NCBI RefSeq assembly: GCF_012932915.1
Contig: NZ_VCQU01000007.1
Location: forward strand, 62,001 to 126,000
Direction of reading: 5' to 3'
Source of the DNA: Antrihabitans stalactiti
GTDB lineage: Bacteria > Actinomycetota > Actinomycetes > Mycobacteriales > Mycobacteriaceae
Length of the DNA stretch: 64,000 nt
The notes under the pieces are model-generated. The model saw nothing but the letters and a program-made list of their open reading frames with translations. It was not told the DNA's origin and ran no database searches. Positions 1,966-15,189 of the stretch are shown one piece after another (position 1 is the first letter of the stretch; every line of letters begins with the position of its first letter). A program made the position numbers and the translations under genes.

Positions 1966-3173
1966 AGATTCAGGCCCGCGTAGATCTCCTCTAGCAGCGG
2001 TGCAAGCATCCCCTGTGCGGTCGTGTTGCCATCGGGCGAGAGCGTCAAGTTCGTCCAAATCACCAGGGTGACGTCGTTATCGGGGTCGTAGCCCATGAAC
2101 GAGTTGAAGCCCGGCAATTCGCCGCCGTGGTAGTACATGGCCGCGTGCTCACCGAACCGCTGGTAGGAGATCCCGTACCCATACTTCTGCCCGTCGGGTG
2201 CCGACGGGTCCTCGGCTTGCACACTGTCGAGCCATTGGCGGTGGAAGTCGCTGTTGAAGACCTTGCCCGACACGAGAGCACGCATCCAGGTGCCCAAGTT
2301 GTCAGCTGTCGAGATCGCACCGCCGGCTGCCGTTGCGTACGAAGAGTTCTGATTCGTGTAATCGATGGGCTGGAGCGTTCCGGCCTTCGCGGCAGCGGTC
2401 AGCTCAGCCGGATAGTCGACGTCGGAGAGGGCGTAGAACGAACCGCCGTACATGTATCCGTGCGAATAGGGAGCGGGGATGGCGGTGTCGTCAGCAACGG
2501 GCACCGACGTCTGGGCAAGCCCTAACGGACCGAAGAATCGATCTTTCAACTGCGTCTGCAACGGTTGTCCGCCAACCTTCTCGGCGATCAGTCCCAGCAG
2601 CGCGTAGTTGGTATTGCTGTACTCGTATTCGGCGTCGGGCGCGAATTGCGGCGGGTGCCGAAACGCGATCGCCAAGACTTCTTGCGGCGTCCAGGCTTTC
2701 GCGGGTTCGGCATCCATCGCGGCAGAAAGGTCCGGGTCCTGCGTGTAGCCGTACAGGCCGCTGCGCATCTTCAAAAGCTCAGCGACGGTGATGTTCTCGC
2801 CATTCGGCACACCAGGAACATAGGACGAGACCGGGTCGCCGAACTTCAGCTTGCCCTCCTGCGCGAGCAGAACAATCAGGGCTGCAGTCATCGTCTTGGT
2901 ATTCGACGCAATTCGGAAATGCGTGCTCGGGTCCGGTTTCGTCTGCTTCCCGAGCTCGGTCGTCCCGACGTCGGCAGCGAAAGTCCCCTGGGGAGTCCGC
3001 AGTAGGACAACGGCACCCGGCACGAAGAGGTCCTTGGCAAGGCGCTCGACAACGCCCTGGAAGGCACCTTGATCGATTGTCTTCACGTGGGACGGCTGTT
3101 CGGACTTCGACGAGCAACTCGCCAGCACGAGCGCAACGCAGACGGCGAATATCTTGCGGGATGTAGTGCTCAT
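1959..3173 (-). CDS. Serine hydrolase lipoprotein (class C beta-lactamase / D-Ala-D-Ala carboxypeptidase-like)
   Basis: 404-residue member of the beta-lactamase/DD-peptidase superfamily. An N-terminal lipoprotein signal ends in LASC, so the mature protein is probably anchored outside the membrane through the Cys near residue 20. Motifs in order: SxxK as SNTK, the YxN motif as YSN in YEYSNTNYALL, and HGG in place of KTG near the C-terminus. Family members hydrolyse D-Ala peptides, beta-lactams or esters; there is no basis to choose. Transcribed alone on the minus strand, tail-to-tail with the DUF1460 gene (TCAGTGA holds both stops). Confidence 0.85.
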   Translation of the reverse strand: MSTTSRKIFAVCVALVLASCSSKSEQPSHVKTIDQGAFQGVVERLAKDLFVPGAVVLLRTPQGTFAADVGTTELGKQTKPDPSTHFRIASNTKTMTAALIVLLAQEGKLKFGDPVSSYVPGVPNGENITVAELLKMRSGLYGYTQDPDLSAAMDAEPAKAWTPQEVLAIAFRHPPQFAPDAEYEYSNTNYALLGLIAEKVGGQPLQTQLKDRFFGPLGLAQTSVPVADDTAIPAPYSHGYMYGGSFYALSDVDYPAELTAAAKAGTLQPIDYTNQNSSYATAAGGAISTADNLGTWMRALVSGKVFNSDFHRQWLDSVQAEDPSAPDGQKYGYGISYQRFGEHAAMYYHGGELPGFNSFMGYDPDNDVTLVIWTNLTLSPDGNTTAQGMLAPLLEEIYAGLNLH

Positions 3174-7795: not shown

Positions 7796-7833
7796 TGTAG
7801 CGACTTGCTACAATGAGTTGCAGTATTGCTACA
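7796..7833 (+). promoter_or_regulatory. Toxin-antitoxin promoter and candidate operator with repeated TTGCTACA
   Basis: TTGCTACA occurs at 7805-7812 and again at 7826-7833, 21 bp apart (two helical turns). An inverted TGTAGC at 7796-7801 makes a dyad with the first copy. TACAAT at 7809-7814 within the first copy fits a -10 box. This layout suits autorepression by the antitoxin; binding is inferred. Confidence 0.55.
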
Positions 7834-7846
7834 GAGGGTGAGTGCC

Positions 7847-8230
7847 ATGGCAGGCGTTGCAGACAAGGTCACCAGGTTGTCCGCCGATCTTATTGCGAGC
7901 GCGATCGCGGAAGGTGCTCGCGAGAGCCGGTCGGGGCGCCAGCAGCTCGAACACTGGGCACGTGTTGGCCGGGAAGTGTCCAACCAGCGCAAGGTTGCGC
8001 GCCAGCGGGTCGAGGCCGCGCTCGCGGGTCGATTGCCTCTGCGCGCTCTGAGCGCGGAGGAAGGCGTCGTCTTCAACGCCGAGGTCGCGGCTGCGCTCGA
8101 AGAGAGCTTGTCGACGGGTAACCATGTTGCCGATCGCGCTGCTCGCGGCCTGTCCTCGGTGGTGCTCGACGACGAGGGCCGCGTGGTCAAGCACAACCCG
8201 GACGGGACCATCATCGTGCTGTCTTCGTGA
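7847..8230 (+). CDS. ParD-like antitoxin
   Basis: 127-residue protein matching the 'TA system antitoxin ParD-like' family: VTRLSADLIASA followed by SRSGRQQLEHWARVGREVS, a ribbon-helix-helix-like DNA-binding start, then a less conserved C-terminal half that probably contacts the toxin. ATG 7847 has AGAGGG 8 nt upstream; an in-frame TTG at 7826 lies inside the operator repeat and is less likely. The stop overlaps the toxin GTG start by 4 nt (GTGA), implying coupled translation. Role inferred: neutralises the downstream P-loop toxin and represses the promoter. Confidence 0.75.
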   Translation: MAGVADKVTRLSADLIASAIAEGARESRSGRQQLEHWARVGREVSNQRKVARQRVEAALAGRLPLRALSAEEGVVFNAEVAAALEESLSTGNHVADRAARGLSSVVLDDEGRVVKHNPDGTIIVLSS

Positions 8231-8811
8231 GGCGGCTCGATCTGGTCGTCGGTTCCAACGGTGCAGGTAAGACTACCTTCGTCACGCGAAGGCTGCAGCC
8301 GCTTCTGATCGAGAGCGTGTTCGTCAACGCGGACGTGATCGCGGCGGAAGAGTGGCCTGACGCTGCTGCGGAACACTCCTACGAGGCTGCCCGAATTGCC
8401 GCGCGAATGCGGACGACGCTCATCACCTTGGGTGAGTCGTTCATTGCCGAGACTGTGTTCTCCCACAAATCGAAACTCGATTTGATCGAAGAGGCGCTTC
8501 GGCACGACTACACCGTGATCCTGCACGTGATGCTGGTGCCGGAGGAGCTGACGGTCGAGCGTGTGCGGCAACGCGTACTAGAAGGCGGGCACCTCGTCCC
8601 GGAAGACAAGATCAGGGAGCGCTATCACCGCTTGTGGGATCTCGTCGCGATCGCGATCACGCGATGCGACTCGGCAACGGTGTACGACAACAGCGCCGCC
8701 GACATCACCCGCATCGTCGCCCGATTCAGCGAAGGCGAGGCGGTCGGCACGGTCGCGTGGCCGAGGTGGACCCCGGCGCCCCTCCGTGATCGCTGGCCAT
8801 CGACCAGCTAG
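8227..8811 (+). CDS. Zeta-toxin-like P-loop kinase
   Basis: 194-residue AAA/zeta-toxin-family protein. Walker A is GSNGAGKTT (residues about 9-17); the segment VFVNADVIAAEEWP supplies the Asp expected as catalytic base; EGGHLVPEDKIRERYHR matches the conserved Arg-containing region of zeta/PezT-like kinases. Zeta toxins phosphorylate UDP-N-acetylglucosamine and block wall synthesis; whether this protein does the same is inference. It starts with GTG inside the antitoxin stop. The 3' end overlaps the convergent luciferase-like gene by CTAG. Confidence 0.75.
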   Translation: MRRLDLVVGSNGAGKTTFVTRRLQPLLIESVFVNADVIAAEEWPDAAAEHSYEAARIAARMRTTLITLGESFIAETVFSHKSKLDLIEEALRHDYTVILHVMLVPEELTVERVRQRVLEGGHLVPEDKIRERYHRLWDLVAIAITRCDSATVYDNSAADITRIVARFSEGEAVGTVAWPRWTPAPLRDRWPSTS

Positions 8812-9710
8812 CCACGTCGCTCGAGGTTTGGTCTGATCAACTCGTCCGCCACCCAGCGCGCAACGTCGTTCGGATACGGCGACGGCAGGTTCAGCACAAC
8901 ATGGGTGAAGCCGACGTCGATCAACTCCCGAACGATGACCCGGGCGAGAGCCGGGTCGTCATAGGAAATCGCGACCTGCACCGAGCGCGTGATGCTGCGA
9001 GGGTCCCGCCCACTAGCTGCGCAGTACCCGTCGAGAACGCGGCTGCGCTCCAAAAGCTTTGCCGCGGTGTTCAGCGGCGGGCCGATCGCATTCCACACGT
9101 CGGCGTGCTCGGCAACGATCCGCAAGGTAGACGACCCAGTTCCCGCGATCAGAATCGGCACACGCGACTGGACCGGTGTCGGATTGCACCGCGCACCGAC
9201 CAGGCGGTAGCGCTCCCCTGCAAAATCGAACTCCTCCCCACTCCACAGGCGACGAATGATCGTGCAGGCTTCCGAAAGGCTGGCGACCGCGGCACCCCAC
9301 TCCCCGACCGGAATGCCGAACGCCTCGTATTCGGGTGCCACCATGGTCGCGAATCTGGGGTCCGATGTCGGTAGACCCCCGACGCCGATCCCGAAGTCGA
9401 GGCGACCGTTGGAGATACCGTCGATGTTTGCCGCGATCTTGGCGAGGACCGCGGGGTGCCGGATCCGATTGTTGTTCGCAAGCACACCGATTCGCAGCCG
9501 CTGCGTCCGCGCGGCCAGTGCGGAAAGCAGTGTCCACGCTTCGTAAATCGGTTCCGACCCCGCACCGACGCGCGGGAGCAGATGGTCGTACAGCCAGGCG
9601 TGCTCGATCTCGGGAATCGCGTCTGCATCGAGCCACACCCGCAGAATGTCGTGGTAGCTGACATTCGCGGGTGTGGTTTTGATCCCGAAGCTCAACGCTG
9701 ACTCGCTCAT
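8808..9710 (-). CDS. LLM-class (luciferase-like) flavin/F420-dependent oxidoreductase
   Basis: 300-residue luciferase-like monooxygenase fold protein. Typical segments are HAWLYDHLLPR near the start, RLRIGVLANNNRIRHPAVLAK, then DFGIGVGGLPTSDPRF and PILIAGTGSSTLRIVAEHADVWNA, which line the flavin or F420 pocket. Last gene of a four-gene operon; its ATG overlaps the SDR-SRPBCC stop (ATGA). The substrate is unknown. Confident of the family, not of F420 against FMN. Confidence 0.85.
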   Translation of the reverse strand: MSESALSFGIKTTPANVSYHDILRVWLDADAIPEIEHAWLYDHLLPRVGAGSEPIYEAWTLLSALAARTQRLRIGVLANNNRIRHPAVLAKIAANIDGISNGRLDFGIGVGGLPTSDPRFATMVAPEYEAFGIPVGEWGAAVASLSEACTIIRRLWSGEEFDFAGERYRLVGARCNPTPVQSRVPILIAGTGSSTLRIVAEHADVWNAIGPPLNTAAKLLERSRVLDGYCAASGRDPRSITRSVQVAISYDDPALARVIVRELIDVGFTHVVLNLPSPYPNDVARWVADELIRPNLERRG

Positions 9711-11317
9711 GCCCTCGAGGTTAGGGCTCCAACAGCAATCAGGTCTCGGAGATTGCCGGTGACCAGGCCACCCCACGCGTCGGAGCAGGCGTCGAAGCAC
9801 TCGTAGTCCGGCACCAATCCGACGTGGGTGAAACGAAGTTCGGTTCGATCGCCCTGGTCGACGATGTCGAACTCGATGGACGTGCCTGCCCATTCGTTGG
9901 CGACACCGACAAAGGTCGGACCGCCTTCGAGCACCTGCCAGACGACCCTGCGACCTGGAACAGATTCCGTCACCTTCTGCTTCGAGACGTGGAGATCTTC
10001 GTAGCGGTAGGTGAACTCGTCACCGACGTCGGTGGTGCTGCCGTCGATTTCGCCCGTCCACCAGCCGCGAACATTGTTGACTGCGGCGAAGACCTCGTCC
10101 GGAGTCTGTTGCACCGTAAAGGTTTTGGTATAGCTGCGATCAGAAGCCAGTGCGCGCTCGCCGTCGGTGATGGCCTCCCCGACGTTCGGCTTGCCTTTGC
10201 CTGTCTCGATCAGGTCCCACAGACTGCCTTTGATGTAGGTGCCCCAGCCGTCGGAGCAGACGTCGTAGCACTCGTATTCCGGCACCAAGCCGTGGTGCGT
10301 GAAATTCAGTTCGGTCTTGTCGCCCTTCTCGGCGATCTCGAAGGTGATGGTGGTGCCCTTCCATTCGGTCTTGTCGTCGATGAAATCGAAGTAGTTGTCC
10401 AACACCGTCCAGACGACGCGCTCGTTGGGCACGAGCTCGGTGATCTGCACTGTGCAACGATGGACGTCTCGGAAGTGGTAGTCGAACACTGCATTCAGTT
10501 TGTCCGTATCGCCGACGATGTCTTCCGACCACCAGCCGCGAACATTGGTGATGGCCGCGAATACCTCTGCCGGCGACTGGTCGACGGTAAAAGTGGCGGT
10601 GTAATTGCGGTCGACGACATATTCGGCGTTTTGCCGTTCCAGAGCCTTCGCTGGACCGTCCCGCCATGCTTGCGCGATTGTTTCCGACAATGGATCGGGA
10701 AAGATTTCTTCCTCGCCACTGTCGACGCCGTCGAAAATTGCGCGCGCAGCGGATTCGGGTGAGGCCTTCGGAATGTCGAGACCGGCGTTCATATCGGTGT
10801 CGACCGGCCCGGTGATGACCGCATGAACGCTGACTCCCCTGCCAGCGAGGAGGGCGCGCATGGACTGCGACATGGAGAGCGCGGCCGACTTCGAGATCGA
10901 ATACGCCGGGATGATCGGCAGCGGTGCGATCGCGGCGAGCGACAACGCATTGACGATCGCCCCGCGCGAACGTGTCAGCAGCGGCAGGAACGCGTGCGTA
11001 ACATCAAGCGGTCCAAACAGATTAACCGCCAGACTCTGTTCTATCGCCGAGCGGTCGGTCAAATCGTCGTAGAGCGCAATTCCCGCGTTGTTGACCAAAA
11101 CGTCGAGGGATTCGACCTGCTCGACCGCGGCAGCGATCTGCGCAGGGTCGGTGATGTCGAGAGTCAGCGGCGTCACTCGCGGATCGTCGTGAACCGACGG
11201 ACCGCGCGTCCCGGCGTAGACGCGGGAGGCACCGCGTCGCAACGCTTCCTCGACCAATGCTTTTCCGATTCCGCGATTCGCTCCGGTGATCAGAACGGTC
11301 TTGTTTGCGATTGTCAT
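9707..11317 (-). CDS. SDR oxidoreductase fused to two SRPBCC/AHSA1 domains
   Basis: 536-residue three-domain protein. Residues 1-235: short-chain dehydrogenase with TGANRGIG (11-18), NNAG, and YSISK catalytic Tyr/Lys. Residues about 240-385 and 395-530: two SRPBCC (AHSA1-like) domains that are clearly duplicates, sharing RGWW near their starts and LVPEYECYDVCSDGWG / LVPDYECFDACSDAWG near their ends. ATG 11317 has AAGGAG 5 nt upstream; an in-frame GTG at 11323 overlaps that site and is rejected. The SRPBCC cavities could bind the SDR substrate or product. Operon partners are a single SRPBCC protein, ArsR and LLM oxidoreductase. Confidence 0.85.
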   Translation of the reverse strand: MTIANKTVLITGANRGIGKALVEEALRRGASRVYAGTRGPSVHDDPRVTPLTLDITDPAQIAAAVEQVESLDVLVNNAGIALYDDLTDRSAIEQSLAVNLFGPLDVTHAFLPLLTRSRGAIVNALSLAAIAPLPIIPAYSISKSAALSMSQSMRALLAGRGVSVHAVITGPVDTDMNAGLDIPKASPESAARAIFDGVDSGEEEIFPDPLSETIAQAWRDGPAKALERQNAEYVVDRNYTATFTVDQSPAEVFAAITNVRGWWSEDIVGDTDKLNAVFDYHFRDVHRCTVQITELVPNERVVWTVLDNYFDFIDDKTEWKGTTITFEIAEKGDKTELNFTHHGLVPEYECYDVCSDGWGTYIKGSLWDLIETGKGKPNVGEAITDGERALASDRSYTKTFTVQQTPDEVFAAVNNVRGWWTGEIDGSTTDVGDEFTYRYEDLHVSKQKVTESVPGRRVVWQVLEGGPTFVGVANEWAGTSIEFDIVDQGDRTELRFTHVGLVPDYECFDACSDAWGGLVTGNLRDLIAVGALTSRA

Positions 11318-11397
11318 TTCCACTCCTTGGTTGTTGAATTGCCGGCCGAAAAAGGGCGCACGAAATACACCCCCACTACTCGGTTGGTTTAGTCGGT

Positions 11398-11736
11398 TTA
11401 CTTTTCTTTACTGCGCTGAACAGCCTCGGCGATCAGCTTGATTCGGCGTAACCGGGCATCCCAAGTCGCGCCGACCGAAGAAAGCTGCGCGACCGCGCGA
11501 GCCAGTTGCTCGTCGTCCACCTGGTACCTCATTTCCCGTCCAGCGGGCGTGACGTGGACCAAGCCGACACGGTCCAGCACTCCCAGATGCTTCGCCACGG
11601 CTTGCCTCGTCACGGGCAGTTGGTCGCTCAGCGACGTCGCCGTTCCGCCGCCTGATGCGAGGAGCAGGTCGACCATGCGCCGCCGCATCGGGTCGCCGAT
11701 TGCCGACCAGAGGTCGTCGTCGATTCCGGAGGTCAT
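11398..11736 (-). CDS. ArsR-family transcriptional regulator
   Basis: 112-residue winged-helix repressor: WSAIGDPMRRRMVDLLL, then recognition helix region PVTRQAVAKHLGVLDRVGLV and wing GREMRYQV. No metal-binding Cys motif is visible, so it belongs to the group paired with SRPBCC proteins rather than metal sensors. ATG overlaps the SRPBCC stop (ATGA). Likely autoregulates the operon through the dyads at 12196 and 12241. Confidence 0.85.
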   Translation of the reverse strand: MTSGIDDDLWSAIGDPMRRRMVDLLLASGGGTATSLSDQLPVTRQAVAKHLGVLDRVGLVHVTPAGREMRYQVDDEQLARAVAQLSSVGATWDARLRRIKLIAEAVQRSKEK

Positions 11737-12179
11737 CGCAGCGACCCGACTCGCGCGGCGTACGCGCCGAGGATGGGGATGAAGCGGTTCCAACCCTCGA
11801 CGTGTTCGGCGTACTGCTGCTCGAGAACGGCGACCTCCCAGCCCATTTCGCGAAACCCGGTCTCGCTCATGCGAAGCAGCGTGCCCTCGCCTTGCGCGAT
11901 GAGTTCGAACGTCACGAGCAGCGAGTTCTCTAGTGTCGCGCCGTCGGGGTAGCACCAGCGAAAGGAGAACGACCGCGGGCGGTCGACGTCGACGATCGTG
12001 ATCGGTGAGACATGATCCCGGTCGCCCCAGACGAGTTCCCCGGCGGCGCCTGGCGCCGACTCGAAGTCGGCCTCGTCTGACCACCACTCGCGGATGTGCT
12101 CGGGCTGACTGACTACCTCGAAAACCACGTCGGGCGACGCGTCGATGTAGATGTCGCGCTCGATGCTTCCGTATTCCAT
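11733..12179 (-). CDS. SRPBCC (AHSA1-like) domain protein
   Basis: 148-residue START/Bet-v1-like cavity protein: IERDIYIDASPDVVFEVV and EHIREWWSDEADFE are hallmarks. First gene of the operon SRPBCC - ArsR - SDR-SRPBCC2 - LLM. ATG 12179 (MEYGSIE) is chosen because AGGAAG lies 10 nt upstream; the longer frame begins inside the operator region. The function is probably binding of a small hydrophobic ligand; no catalytic residue is evident. Confidence 0.8.
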   Translation of the reverse strand: MEYGSIERDIYIDASPDVVFEVVSQPEHIREWWSDEADFESAPGAAGELVWGDRDHVSPITIVDVDRPRSFSFRWCYPDGATLENSLLVTFELIAQGEGTLLRMSETGFREMGWEVAVLEQQYAEHVEGWNRFIPILGAYAARVGSLR

Positions 12180-12195: not shown

Positions 12196-12210
12196 GCAAC
12201 GTTTGGTTGC
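12196..12210. promoter_or_regulatory. Operator-like dyad 1, GCAAC-N5-GTTGC
   Basis: GCAACGTTTGGTTGC, 17 bp upstream of the SRPBCC start. Same arms as the site at 12241, likely ArsR binding. Confidence 0.55.
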
Positions 12211-12240
12211 ACATCACCGTAACTCATCGATTTCGTTCGC

Positions 12241-12255
12241 GCAACCATCGGTTGC
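12241..12255. promoter_or_regulatory. Operator-like dyad 2, GCAAC-N5-GTTGC
   Basis: GCAACCATCGGTTGC, a perfect dyad (6-bp arms) lying exactly 45 bp from dyad 1, so both face the same side of the helix within about four turns. Confidence 0.6.
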
Positions 12256-14052: not shown

Positions 14053-14607
14053 ATGCGCACATTCAAGCTTCAAGTCCAGACCACGGTCGACGGCTACATG
14101 GCCGGACCGAACGGTGAAATGGACTGGCTGACGTTCGATTGGTCCGACGACTTCAAGGCTTACGTCGACGCGCTGACCAAGCCGGTCGACACCATCGTCT
14201 TAGGTCGGAAGCTCGCCGAAGGCTTCATCCCGGCCTGGGCAGCGGGCCCTCCCGGCGAGGACCAGGAATCCATCGACAAGATGAACAACACGCCGAAAGT
14301 CGTGATCTCCGAAAGCGTTACCGAGTCACCGTGGGACGGTGTCACCATCGCGAGCGACCTCGTCGCCACGGTGAACGAACTCAAGGCGCAGGACGGTGGC
14401 GACATCATCGCTTACGGCGGTGGGACATTCGTCTCGAATCTGATCGCCGAGGGACTGCTCGACGAACTCCACCTGTTCGTCAACCCCACGTCGATCGGCG
14501 GTGGCATGCCGGTCTTTCCTGCCAGCGCCTACCATCGCCTCCGCCTTGTCGCCGCCACGCCGTTCGAATGCGGTGTCACAGCGCTGCACTACGCACCGAC
14601 GCGCTAG
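14053..14607 (+). CDS. Dihydrofolate reductase / RibD C-terminal family protein
   Basis: 184-residue RibD_C/DHFR-fold protein: FKLQVQTTVDGYMAG at the start, TIVLGRKLAEGF in the middle and GGDIIAYGGGTFVSNLIAEGLLDELHLFVNP near the end, the NADPH-binding core of the family. Natural substrate unknown. AAGGGA 8 nt before ATG 14053 is a good ribosome site. Abuts the convergent FMN reductase gene with no gap. Confidence 0.85.
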   Translation: MRTFKLQVQTTVDGYMAGPNGEMDWLTFDWSDDFKAYVDALTKPVDTIVLGRKLAEGFIPAWAAGPPGEDQESIDKMNNTPKVVISESVTESPWDGVTIASDLVATVNELKAQDGGDIIAYGGGTFVSNLIAEGLLDELHLFVNPTSIGGGMPVFPASAYHRLRLVAATPFECGVTALHYAPTR

Positions 14608-15189
14608 TTACTCCGCCGCGCTCGTTCTGGGCAGAACGGTCAGTACTCGACAGGTGTGGTCGCGGAATTCCTGCATGAAGTCGGTGAGGAATTTCTCGGT
14701 CTCGGGATTGGTGATGTCGCCGTCGTCGGTGATCAAGCCCGGCTTCAGTTGAATGTAGGCCTCGGGAGTCGTCATCTGCCTCGCGTTGCAGAAGCTCAGC
14801 ACACCACGCAGACTCTGCTGCGCGAGCGCAGTCCCGATCGCTCCCGGCGATGCGCCGATGACGGCCGCGGGCATGTGGTCGAACGAATTCTTGCCCCATG
14901 GTCGCGATGCCCAGTCGATCGCATTCTTCAGTGCGCCAGGGATCGACCGGTTGTACTCAGGCGTGATGAACAGGACCGCGTGCACCCCGGCGAGAGCTTC
15001 CTTCAACGCGACACCGGTCGGCGGATAGTCCTCGTCGAAGTCGGGGTTGTAGAGCGGGAGGTCCTTGATGGGGATCTCAGTGAACTCGAGTTCAGCCGGG
15101 GCCACTTTGATCAACGCTTTGGACAGCTTTCGATTGATCGATCCAGATGCGAGGCTTCCGATGAAGTAGCCGACTTTGTACGTGGTCAT
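14608..15189 (-). CDS. NADPH-dependent FMN reductase (chromate reductase-like)
   Basis: 193-residue flavodoxin-fold reductase. GSLASGSINRKLSKAL binds the FMN phosphate and TPEYNRSIPGALKNAIDWASRP is the family signature. Such enzymes reduce quinones, azo dyes or metal oxyanions with NAD(P)H. Third gene of an operon with the GerW-like and patatin genes; its ATG overlaps the patatin stop (ATGA). Confidence 0.88.
   Translation of the reverse strand: MTTYKVGYFIGSLASGSINRKLSKALIKVAPAELEFTEIPIKDLPLYNPDFDEDYPPTGVALKEALAGVHAVLFITPEYNRSIPGALKNAIDWASRPWGKNSFDHMPAAVIGASPGAIGTALAQQSLRGVLSFCNARQMTTPEAYIQLKPGLITDDGDITNPETEKFLTDFMQEFRDHTCRVLTVLPRTSAAE

Follow-up and report, generated by a model that had tools for sequence, protein, structure and literature searches.

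An in-frame SDR-SRPBCC-SRPBCC fusion within an ArsR-AHSA1 operon of Antrihabitans stalactiti

As predicted stress modules, gene pairs encoding an ArsR-type regulator and a protein of the AHSA1 family (COG3832) are common, and the cited work, in the parts considered here, names no ligand for one (PMC2701414). In those parts Makarova et al. (2009) list the ArsR-COG3832 pair, with hundreds of cases, as a candidate module whose ArsR is devoid of metal motifs, and judge antibiotic resistance likelier than a true toxin system (PMC2701414). Potential ArsR-AHSA1 operons have been noted in Frankia, with the link given as not demonstrated in the passage concerned (PMC4531530), and a survey of the Bet v 1 fold describes it, in the portion cited, as a scaffold for large hydrophobic ligands (PMC2577659). 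Here we describe an operon of Antrihabitans stalactiti (assembly GCF_012932915.1, contig NZ_VCQU01000007.1, positions 62,001 to 126,000; these 64,000 nucleotides are called the window) in which such a pair is followed by a gene fusing an SDR domain to two AHSA1-type SRPBCC domains, S1 and S2, and by a gene for an LLM-class oxidoreductase.

The operon resembles the module predicted in 2009 in that an AHSA1 gene, here called FREE, lies directly beside a cysteine-free ArsR gene, and its core matches that module; it differs in that the pair heads an operon with the fusion and the LLM gene, and in sharing a pair of palindromes that the portions of PMC2701414 considered do not mention. As the fusion and LLM genes follow on the same strand, the operon is not of the two-gene form and constitutes an extended variant of the ArsR-COG3832 module. 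The Rv2034-Rv2036 operon of Mycobacterium tuberculosis likewise has a self-controlling ArsR and an SRPBCC-type gene (Rv2035, with a polyketide_cyc2 domain), but the binding site given there, CCGTAAGT-N4-ACTTACGG, is unlike the GCAACN5GTTGC palindrome described below, and an SDR fusion is not mentioned in the parts of that paper considered (PMC3338718). Two SRPBCC folds in one chain, as in the fusion, are found in DynU16, StfQ and BexL, the first of which has a pocket with two free cysteines; these proteins differ in sharing 11-13% identity with S1-S2, apparently in domain placement, in belonging to antibiotic pathways, and in having no joined SDR, as far as the cited portion goes (PMC8488855).

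The SDR-S1-S2 fusion is genuine: one intact, stop-free frame of 536 residues runs along the minus strand from ATG 11317, or from GTG 11323, to the TGA at 9707-9709. Pfam assigns adh_short to residues 6-179 (E 1.1e-37) and AHSA1 to two stretches (whole-protein E 1.4e-14, 54.8 bits against a cut-off of 22.1), and both the S1 and S2 halves of a structure model match AHSA1 structures in a test for the helix-grip fold; frame and Pfam matches together bear out the preliminary description of a complete SDR joined in frame to two AHSA1-like domains. The joint between SDR and S1 (residues 216-262) contains no in-frame ATG, GTG or TTG, and the sole in-frame start codon around the S1/S2 joint (residues 366-412) is GTG 402, within S2. 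The GC content at third codon positions is high in all three parts (0.71, 0.84 and 0.72).

In SDR proteins TGxxxGxG is the nucleotide-binding motif, Ser, Tyr and Lys form the active site, and an arginine after the second strand usually goes with NADPH. The SDR part of the fusion has the classical TGxxxGxG, NNAG and Asn-Ser-Tyr-Lys set (G12, G16, G18, N76, A78, N99, S126, Y139, K143), and its adh_short match lies above the Pfam cut-off. In an alignment of 27 rows G12, G16, G18, R38, N76, S126, Y139 and K143 are invariant and N99 is present in at least 90%; the cofactor is probably NADPH, judging by the invariant R38 after the second strand. The best NCBIfam match is NF006118 (SDR subfamily PRK08264.1-4), at 251.1 bits over residues 1-233; this score is under the cut-off of 279, and the 244-position profile spans the SDR alone. 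Ten positions are invariant in the S family (18 rows, numbered from residue 234), namely W29, W30, H53, W70, E85, W86, E116, C117, C121 and W125; those of S1 have counterparts in the S2 sequence, and the conserved Cys-x3-Cys, with the His and Glu, may form a ligand or metal site.

We know the fusion from this one place. Among the matches listed for 401 genomes of the family, only the window's own place spans both S domains unbroken; among those listed for the order (397 genomes) and the class (394, overlapping with the former), unbroken S1 matches start at most about 15 residues before S1, save the window's own; and among those listed for 61 relatives the SDR and S matches stand apart. The genome scans overlap one another, and up to 30 loci were fetched from each: across the 262 fetched loci, SDR and S matches share a frame in three cases only, each of them a copy of the window's own. 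None of 1798 matching plasmid records covers 80% of the query at one place, and a contig scan with six peptide patterns gave 80 loci, among the matches listed, of which none is fused. A tblastn piece on a Leisingera plasmid (residues 1-303, 34% identity) was not counted as a fusion: it spans two annotated genes and phmmer matches its SDR part only. The architecture, which the preliminary description had called unfamiliar, thus has no second case among the genome, contig and plasmid matches listed or fetched, which falls short of proving its absence elsewhere. The titles and abstract beginnings of open-access papers, weak evidence of absence since they cover open papers only, yielded nothing on an SDR-SRPBCC fusion or on the palindrome pair.

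ArsR is present in all three other genomes of the genus examined, at 77-83% identity. In two of them (G002 and G003) one different AHSA1 protein (S scores of 60 and 68 bits; the G003 product has a Pfam AHSA1 match) comes after the exact palindrome pair, FREE and ArsR, while G001 has FREE and ArsR, one exact palindrome and, 45 bases before it, a palindrome with a single mismatch, because of which the exact-pair pattern misses the site; it has no S match. The fusion, or a gene of SDR, S1 or S2 type, is absent from this locus in all three, and SDR and LLM matches are absent from the 7.5 kb taken from each. The sister genomes had been proposed as the place to look for the same genes split by a stop; none was seen there, two of the three carrying the one different SRPBCC protein instead. 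A methyltransferase gene that flanks the operon in the window also occurs near the G003 operon. The likeliest history is that the third gene was exchanged for SDR-S1-S2 plus LLM at a kept locus, a direction suggested by this comparison of sequences.

In more distant genomes the parts also occur unfused, as separate neighbouring genes. Puia dinghuensis encodes a single two-domain S-S protein (44% identity between this S pair and S1-S2 across 293 columns) and then an SDR; a Mucilaginibacter genome has the gene order S, S, SDR; in a Mesorhizobium the SDR gene comes immediately after a gene (L095 5016-5828, plus strand) that joins an S-type AHSA1 domain to an antibiotic biosynthesis monooxygenase (ABM) domain; and in Nonomuraea basaltis, as in G787 and G823 from the class of A. 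stalactiti, SDR is followed by S. The order SRPBCC, ArsR, SDR is found in Ktedonobacter racemifer (Chloroflexota) and in two genomes from the order of A. stalactiti (G529, whose SDR is 73% identical to that of the window, and G495), an SRPBCC-ArsR pair is divergent from an SDR gene in a Pseudofrankia (Actinomycetota), and S lies 1.9 kb before SDR in an Actinobacteria metagenome-assembled genome (L101). Unfused neighbours of the same SDR type are thus found in Bacteroidota, Pseudomonadota, Chloroflexota and Actinomycetota. Among the contig-scan matches listed, S, FREE or ArsR lies within 2.5 kb at 7 of 35 close SDR loci and at 0 of 43 distant ones (Fisher p 0.0025); all 35 contain an SDR search peptide, so that their selection was independent of the S peptides. 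The association of this SDR with S, FREE and ArsR is real but optional, and the separate-gene neighbours in other phyla independently back a link between the SDR and the ArsR-AHSA1 pair. Since the parts adjoin as separate genes in other phyla, the shared small-molecule role suggested in the preliminary description gains support; its interpretation as a whole is partly supported, and its observation is confirmed.

S1 and S2 are distinct paralogues and share 53% identity over 138 residues. Trees were built from 76 S domains and from 39 of those 76. S1 clusters with a Rhizobium S gene and Mucilaginibacter gene 1, and the second S of Puia is on that side too. On the side of S2 are the S genes next to the SDR in Nonomuraea and in G787, plus the other S of Puia and of Mucilaginibacter. 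Support for the split is moderate (86/97 on the S2 side of the 76-row tree and 90/83 in the 39-row tree, neither of them starred), many branches are weak, and S2 is flagged as a long end branch in the 76-row tree. Forcing S1 and S2 together in the 39-row set lowers the log-likelihood by 24.9 (approximately unbiased (AU) test, p 0.0029), and on this test, covering 39 of the 76 rows, we rejected a local duplication, the sense in which the domains had been called duplicated. As the two stand on separate branches, the pair was assembled from two lineages or is an old pair, and was not copied on the spot.

Upstream of FREE lie two copies of GCAACN5GTTGC, a motif with two matches in the window against 0.10 expected, and the exact pair occurs at a single place in the 6.76 Mb genome (reversed-pattern control, 0). 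Two palindromes, with at most one mismatch each, precede FREE at 20 of 20 loci outside the window with FREE above 150 bits and at 0 of 12 with FREE below 100 bits; these limits were set after two score groups had become visible, the 32 rows falling 20 and 12 with none between, and the count excludes the window itself, duplicated upstream stretches and any shorter than 150 bases. A blind search for the exact pair found it in 81 of 397 genomes of the order and 6 of 296 of the phylum (own genome in both), with no control matches among the rows listed. FREE is present at 32, ArsR at 33 and an S-like gene at 27 (4 of close S type) of the 35 palindrome-pair loci fetched; the exceptions include one with ArsR and no FREE (L228), one with an S gene alone (L235) and one with none of the three (L251). 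This co-occurrence suggests that ArsR binds the palindromes.

Between the palindromes lies TANNNT: of 47 distinct pairs, the window included, 40 have its end exactly 5 bases ahead of the second palindrome and 45 have it 3-7 bases ahead (shuffle control: mean 2.1, largest 6). By its conserved place, TANNNT resembles a -10 element flanked by repressor sites; a simple scan of the control region for the sigma-70 consensus found 0, against 0.7 expected. Three further groups of loci belong beside these. At L270 (G623, 2604-3127) a palindrome pair precedes an S-like gene with no FREE or ArsR match in the 6.5 kb taken, and a second pair lies elsewhere in the genome, so that ArsR may act on a distant target. 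At L272 (G654, 2711-2770) a pair stands with the searched families unmatched for about 2.7 kb in both directions. A divergent second lineage of FREE-ArsR (L089, L216, L224, L151, L152 and L154; FREE at 38-58 bits) occurs with SDR or S genes; GCAACN5GTTGC is absent from the 250 bases searched there, and its operator may therefore differ.

The genes of the operon are tightly packed on one strand in the order FREE, ArsR, fusion, LLM (Table 1), with ATGA overlaps between FREE and ArsR and between the fusion and LLM and a gap of 80 bases between ArsR and the fusion; coordinates and overlaps agree with the operon of free SRPBCC protein, ArsR and LLM oxidoreductase proposed earlier. Over 111 residues FREE and S2 share only 24% identity, and FREE hence belongs to a different AHSA1 branch. 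The ArsR protein, of 112 residues, contains no cysteine and so has no cysteine-based metal site, a criterion that covers cysteine ligands. For the LLM protein, F420-type models fit best and remain under their cut-offs (NCBIfam TIGR03560, 163.6 bits against 231.4). PADLOC returned no family for the three proteins submitted.

Table 1. Positions of the operon genes, fusion domains and control elements in the window
Feature	Position	Strand	Evidence
Fusion gene SDR-S1-S2, 536 residues plus stop	9707..11317	-	Open frame; Pfam adh_short and two AHSA1 stretches; GTG start at 11323 also possible
SDR domain, residues 1-233	10619..11317	-	TGxxxGxG, NNAG, active-site Ser126, Tyr139, Lys143
S1, first AHSA1-type SRPBCC domain, residues 234-386	10160..10618	-	Pfam; model pLDDT mostly >90; trees
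S2, second AHSA1-type SRPBCC domain, residues 387-536	9710..10159	-	Pfam second stretch; model; trees
FREE, free SRPBCC (AHSA1) protein, first operon gene	11733..12179	-	Pfam AHSA1 E 3.4e-15
ArsR-type repressor, cysteine-free	11398..11736	-	NCBIfam NF033788 (HTH_metalloreg) 58 bits, cut-off 55; Pfam HTH_20
LLM-class oxidoreductase	8808..9710	-	Pfam Bac_luciferase E 1.2e-41; ATG overlaps fusion TGA
Palindrome GCAACN5GTTGC, promoter-distal, putative operator 1	12241..12255		Conserved; two motif matches in 64 kb, 0.10 expected
Palindrome GCAACN5GTTGC beside first gene, putative operator 2	12196..12210		Same motif, conserved
TACGGT, candidate -10 element between palindromes, 5 bases before operator 2	12216..12221	-	TANNNT conservation; sequence

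We hypothesize, with chances that we regard as evenly balanced, that this is an inducible detoxification or response operon of the ArsR-COG3832 type, whose SRPBCC domains capture a hydrophobic carbonyl compound that is then reduced by the tethered SDR. ArsR would occupy both palindromes and block the promoter until a hydrophobic carbonyl- or quinone-like compound, foreign or a product of stress, releases it, the free SRPBCC protein perhaps acting as a ligand holder at this step; S1 and S2 would then bind the compound in their cavities, the tethered SDR would reduce it once captured, probably with NADPH, and the F420-type LLM enzyme could offer a second reduction. The fusion would fix the SDR and the two binders at 1:1:1 and hold the captured ligand near the active site. 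The intact active-site positions of the SDR and the conserved SRPBCC positions kept in S1 and S2 support this proposal, as do the recurrence of these partners beside the SDR where they are unfused, their enrichment at close SDR loci, the conserved palindromes with their TANNNT element, and the joining of such AHSA1 domains to ABM and glutaminase domains elsewhere. So read, the fusion points to SDR reduction as the chemistry for at least one ArsR-AHSA1 pair, and the conserved palindrome pair would be a ready reporter for inducer screening. It is also possible, though on balance doubtful, that a fixed sensor cassette (SRPBCC, ArsR and the two-palindrome promoter) recruits exchangeable effector enzymes, and that here a pair of unlike SRPBCC domains takes up two substrates, or one compound in two states, for delivery to the tethered SDR; if true, the operon would represent a new class of system for responding to small molecules, one whose binding domains are part of the detoxifying enzyme.

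Several points weigh against the detoxification proposal. Ligand, regulation and hand-over are all inferred, the regulation entirely from sequence. The 35 fetched palindrome-pair loci gave no SDR match, their usual effector being a lone SRPBCC protein, and 28 of the 35 close SDR loci, among the matches listed, are without any partner within 2.5 kb; 7 of the 35 have less than 2.5 kb of sequence on one side, and the rest show the SDR often standing without partners. The rows of the AU test were picked after the first tree had been inspected. A conserved link of the LLM gene to S, SDR or FREE-ArsR partners could not be shown. At one locus (L185/L211) with the order S, S, luciferase-like frame, an LLM-S link was considered and set aside, the match to the window's LLM being 38 bits only and perhaps due to chance. 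The full-length AlphaFold model of the fusion (mean pLDDT 72.7, pTM 0.43) is too poor to place the cavities and does not show those of the S domains facing the SDR; that of S1-S2 has a pTM of 0.58, with pLDDT mostly above 90 within S1. Neither model fixes how the domains are placed.

The fusion could instead be neutral or merely stoichiometric, the outcome of a lost stop and start between neighbouring genes, with three domains that work independently and exchange no ligand. We hold this to be a minor possibility, yet a serious one, since the same parts are separate genes in several phyla, AHSA1 domains of a similar kind are joined to unrelated enzyme domains elsewhere (ABM and glutaminase), and the linkers between the fusion domains are poorly predicted; against it, the conserved positions are kept in each of SDR, S1 and S2, the trees place S1 and S2 apart, with moderate support, just as they separate the two SDR-adjacent S domains of Puia and of Mucilaginibacter, and the S, S, SDR order of those two genomes is unlike the domain order here. 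An artefact of assembly or sequencing that joined separate genes is scarcely credible: the fusion is found in none of the three sister genomes, but these are without the parts altogether at this locus, the 536-codon frame is intact and high in third-position GC in all three parts, the SDR/S1 joint holds no leftover start codon, the contig spans 405 kb, and the genome is rated 100% complete.

A role in biosynthesis is improbable, though less so than an artefact. The SDR would be a ketoreductase and the tandem SRPBCC domains an aromatase/cyclase in type II polyketide style, and indeed DynU16 (PDB 6v04) and the two-domain aromatase/cyclases StfQ and BexL (4xrt, 4xrw) take ranks 1, 2, 3 and 5 among the Foldseek matches of the S1-S2 model. 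These two-domain matches come only at a root-mean-square deviation of 16-17 A, on a model of pTM 0.58, whereas single AHSA1 structures fit far better, such as 2m89 at 2.3 A, a single-domain Aha1-domain protein of Colwellia psychrerythraea whose entry title names no function; moreover, in Pfam the fusion hits AHSA1 but, at E 0.001, none of the polyketide cyclase models. No frame in the window exceeds 952 codons, and so no large modular synthase is at hand, the small genes of type II synthases not having been searched for. Very unlikely, finally, is a stress module akin to toxin-antitoxin systems, as once proposed for ArsR-COG3832 pairs: the candidate listing of 2009 and a ParD-like/zeta-like pair next door speak for it, but the same work, in the parts considered, favoured antibiotic resistance (PMC2701414), and a COG3832-ArsR pair of Stenotrophomonas is given, in the portion cited, as non-toxic in kill-rescue tests (PMC7650669).

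The ParD-like gene (PF11903) and the zeta-toxin-like kinase gene (PF06414, PF13671) lie in that order on the plus strand at 7829-8811, adjoining the operon, with a near-palindrome, TGCTACAATGAGTTGCA, at 7806 just upstream of them. Among proteins joining an AHSA1 domain to another enzyme, L058 (1320-3020, plus strand), from a small genome of the same family (genus code g3), has AHSA1 as the C-terminal part of a glutaminase-STAS protein by Pfam, and similar frames of 562-612 codons occur in L059-L061 and L066. A RibD_C-type reductase gene and an FMN reductase gene stand near the operon at 14053-15189, with no tie to it established; the G003 operon, too, has a match to the RibD_C gene nearby, and one S gene of Rhizobium is followed by a 'dihydrofolate reductase family protein'. 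Near a related operon of G037 there is a frame that, from a reading of its sequence, looks TetR-like, again with no tie to the operon established.

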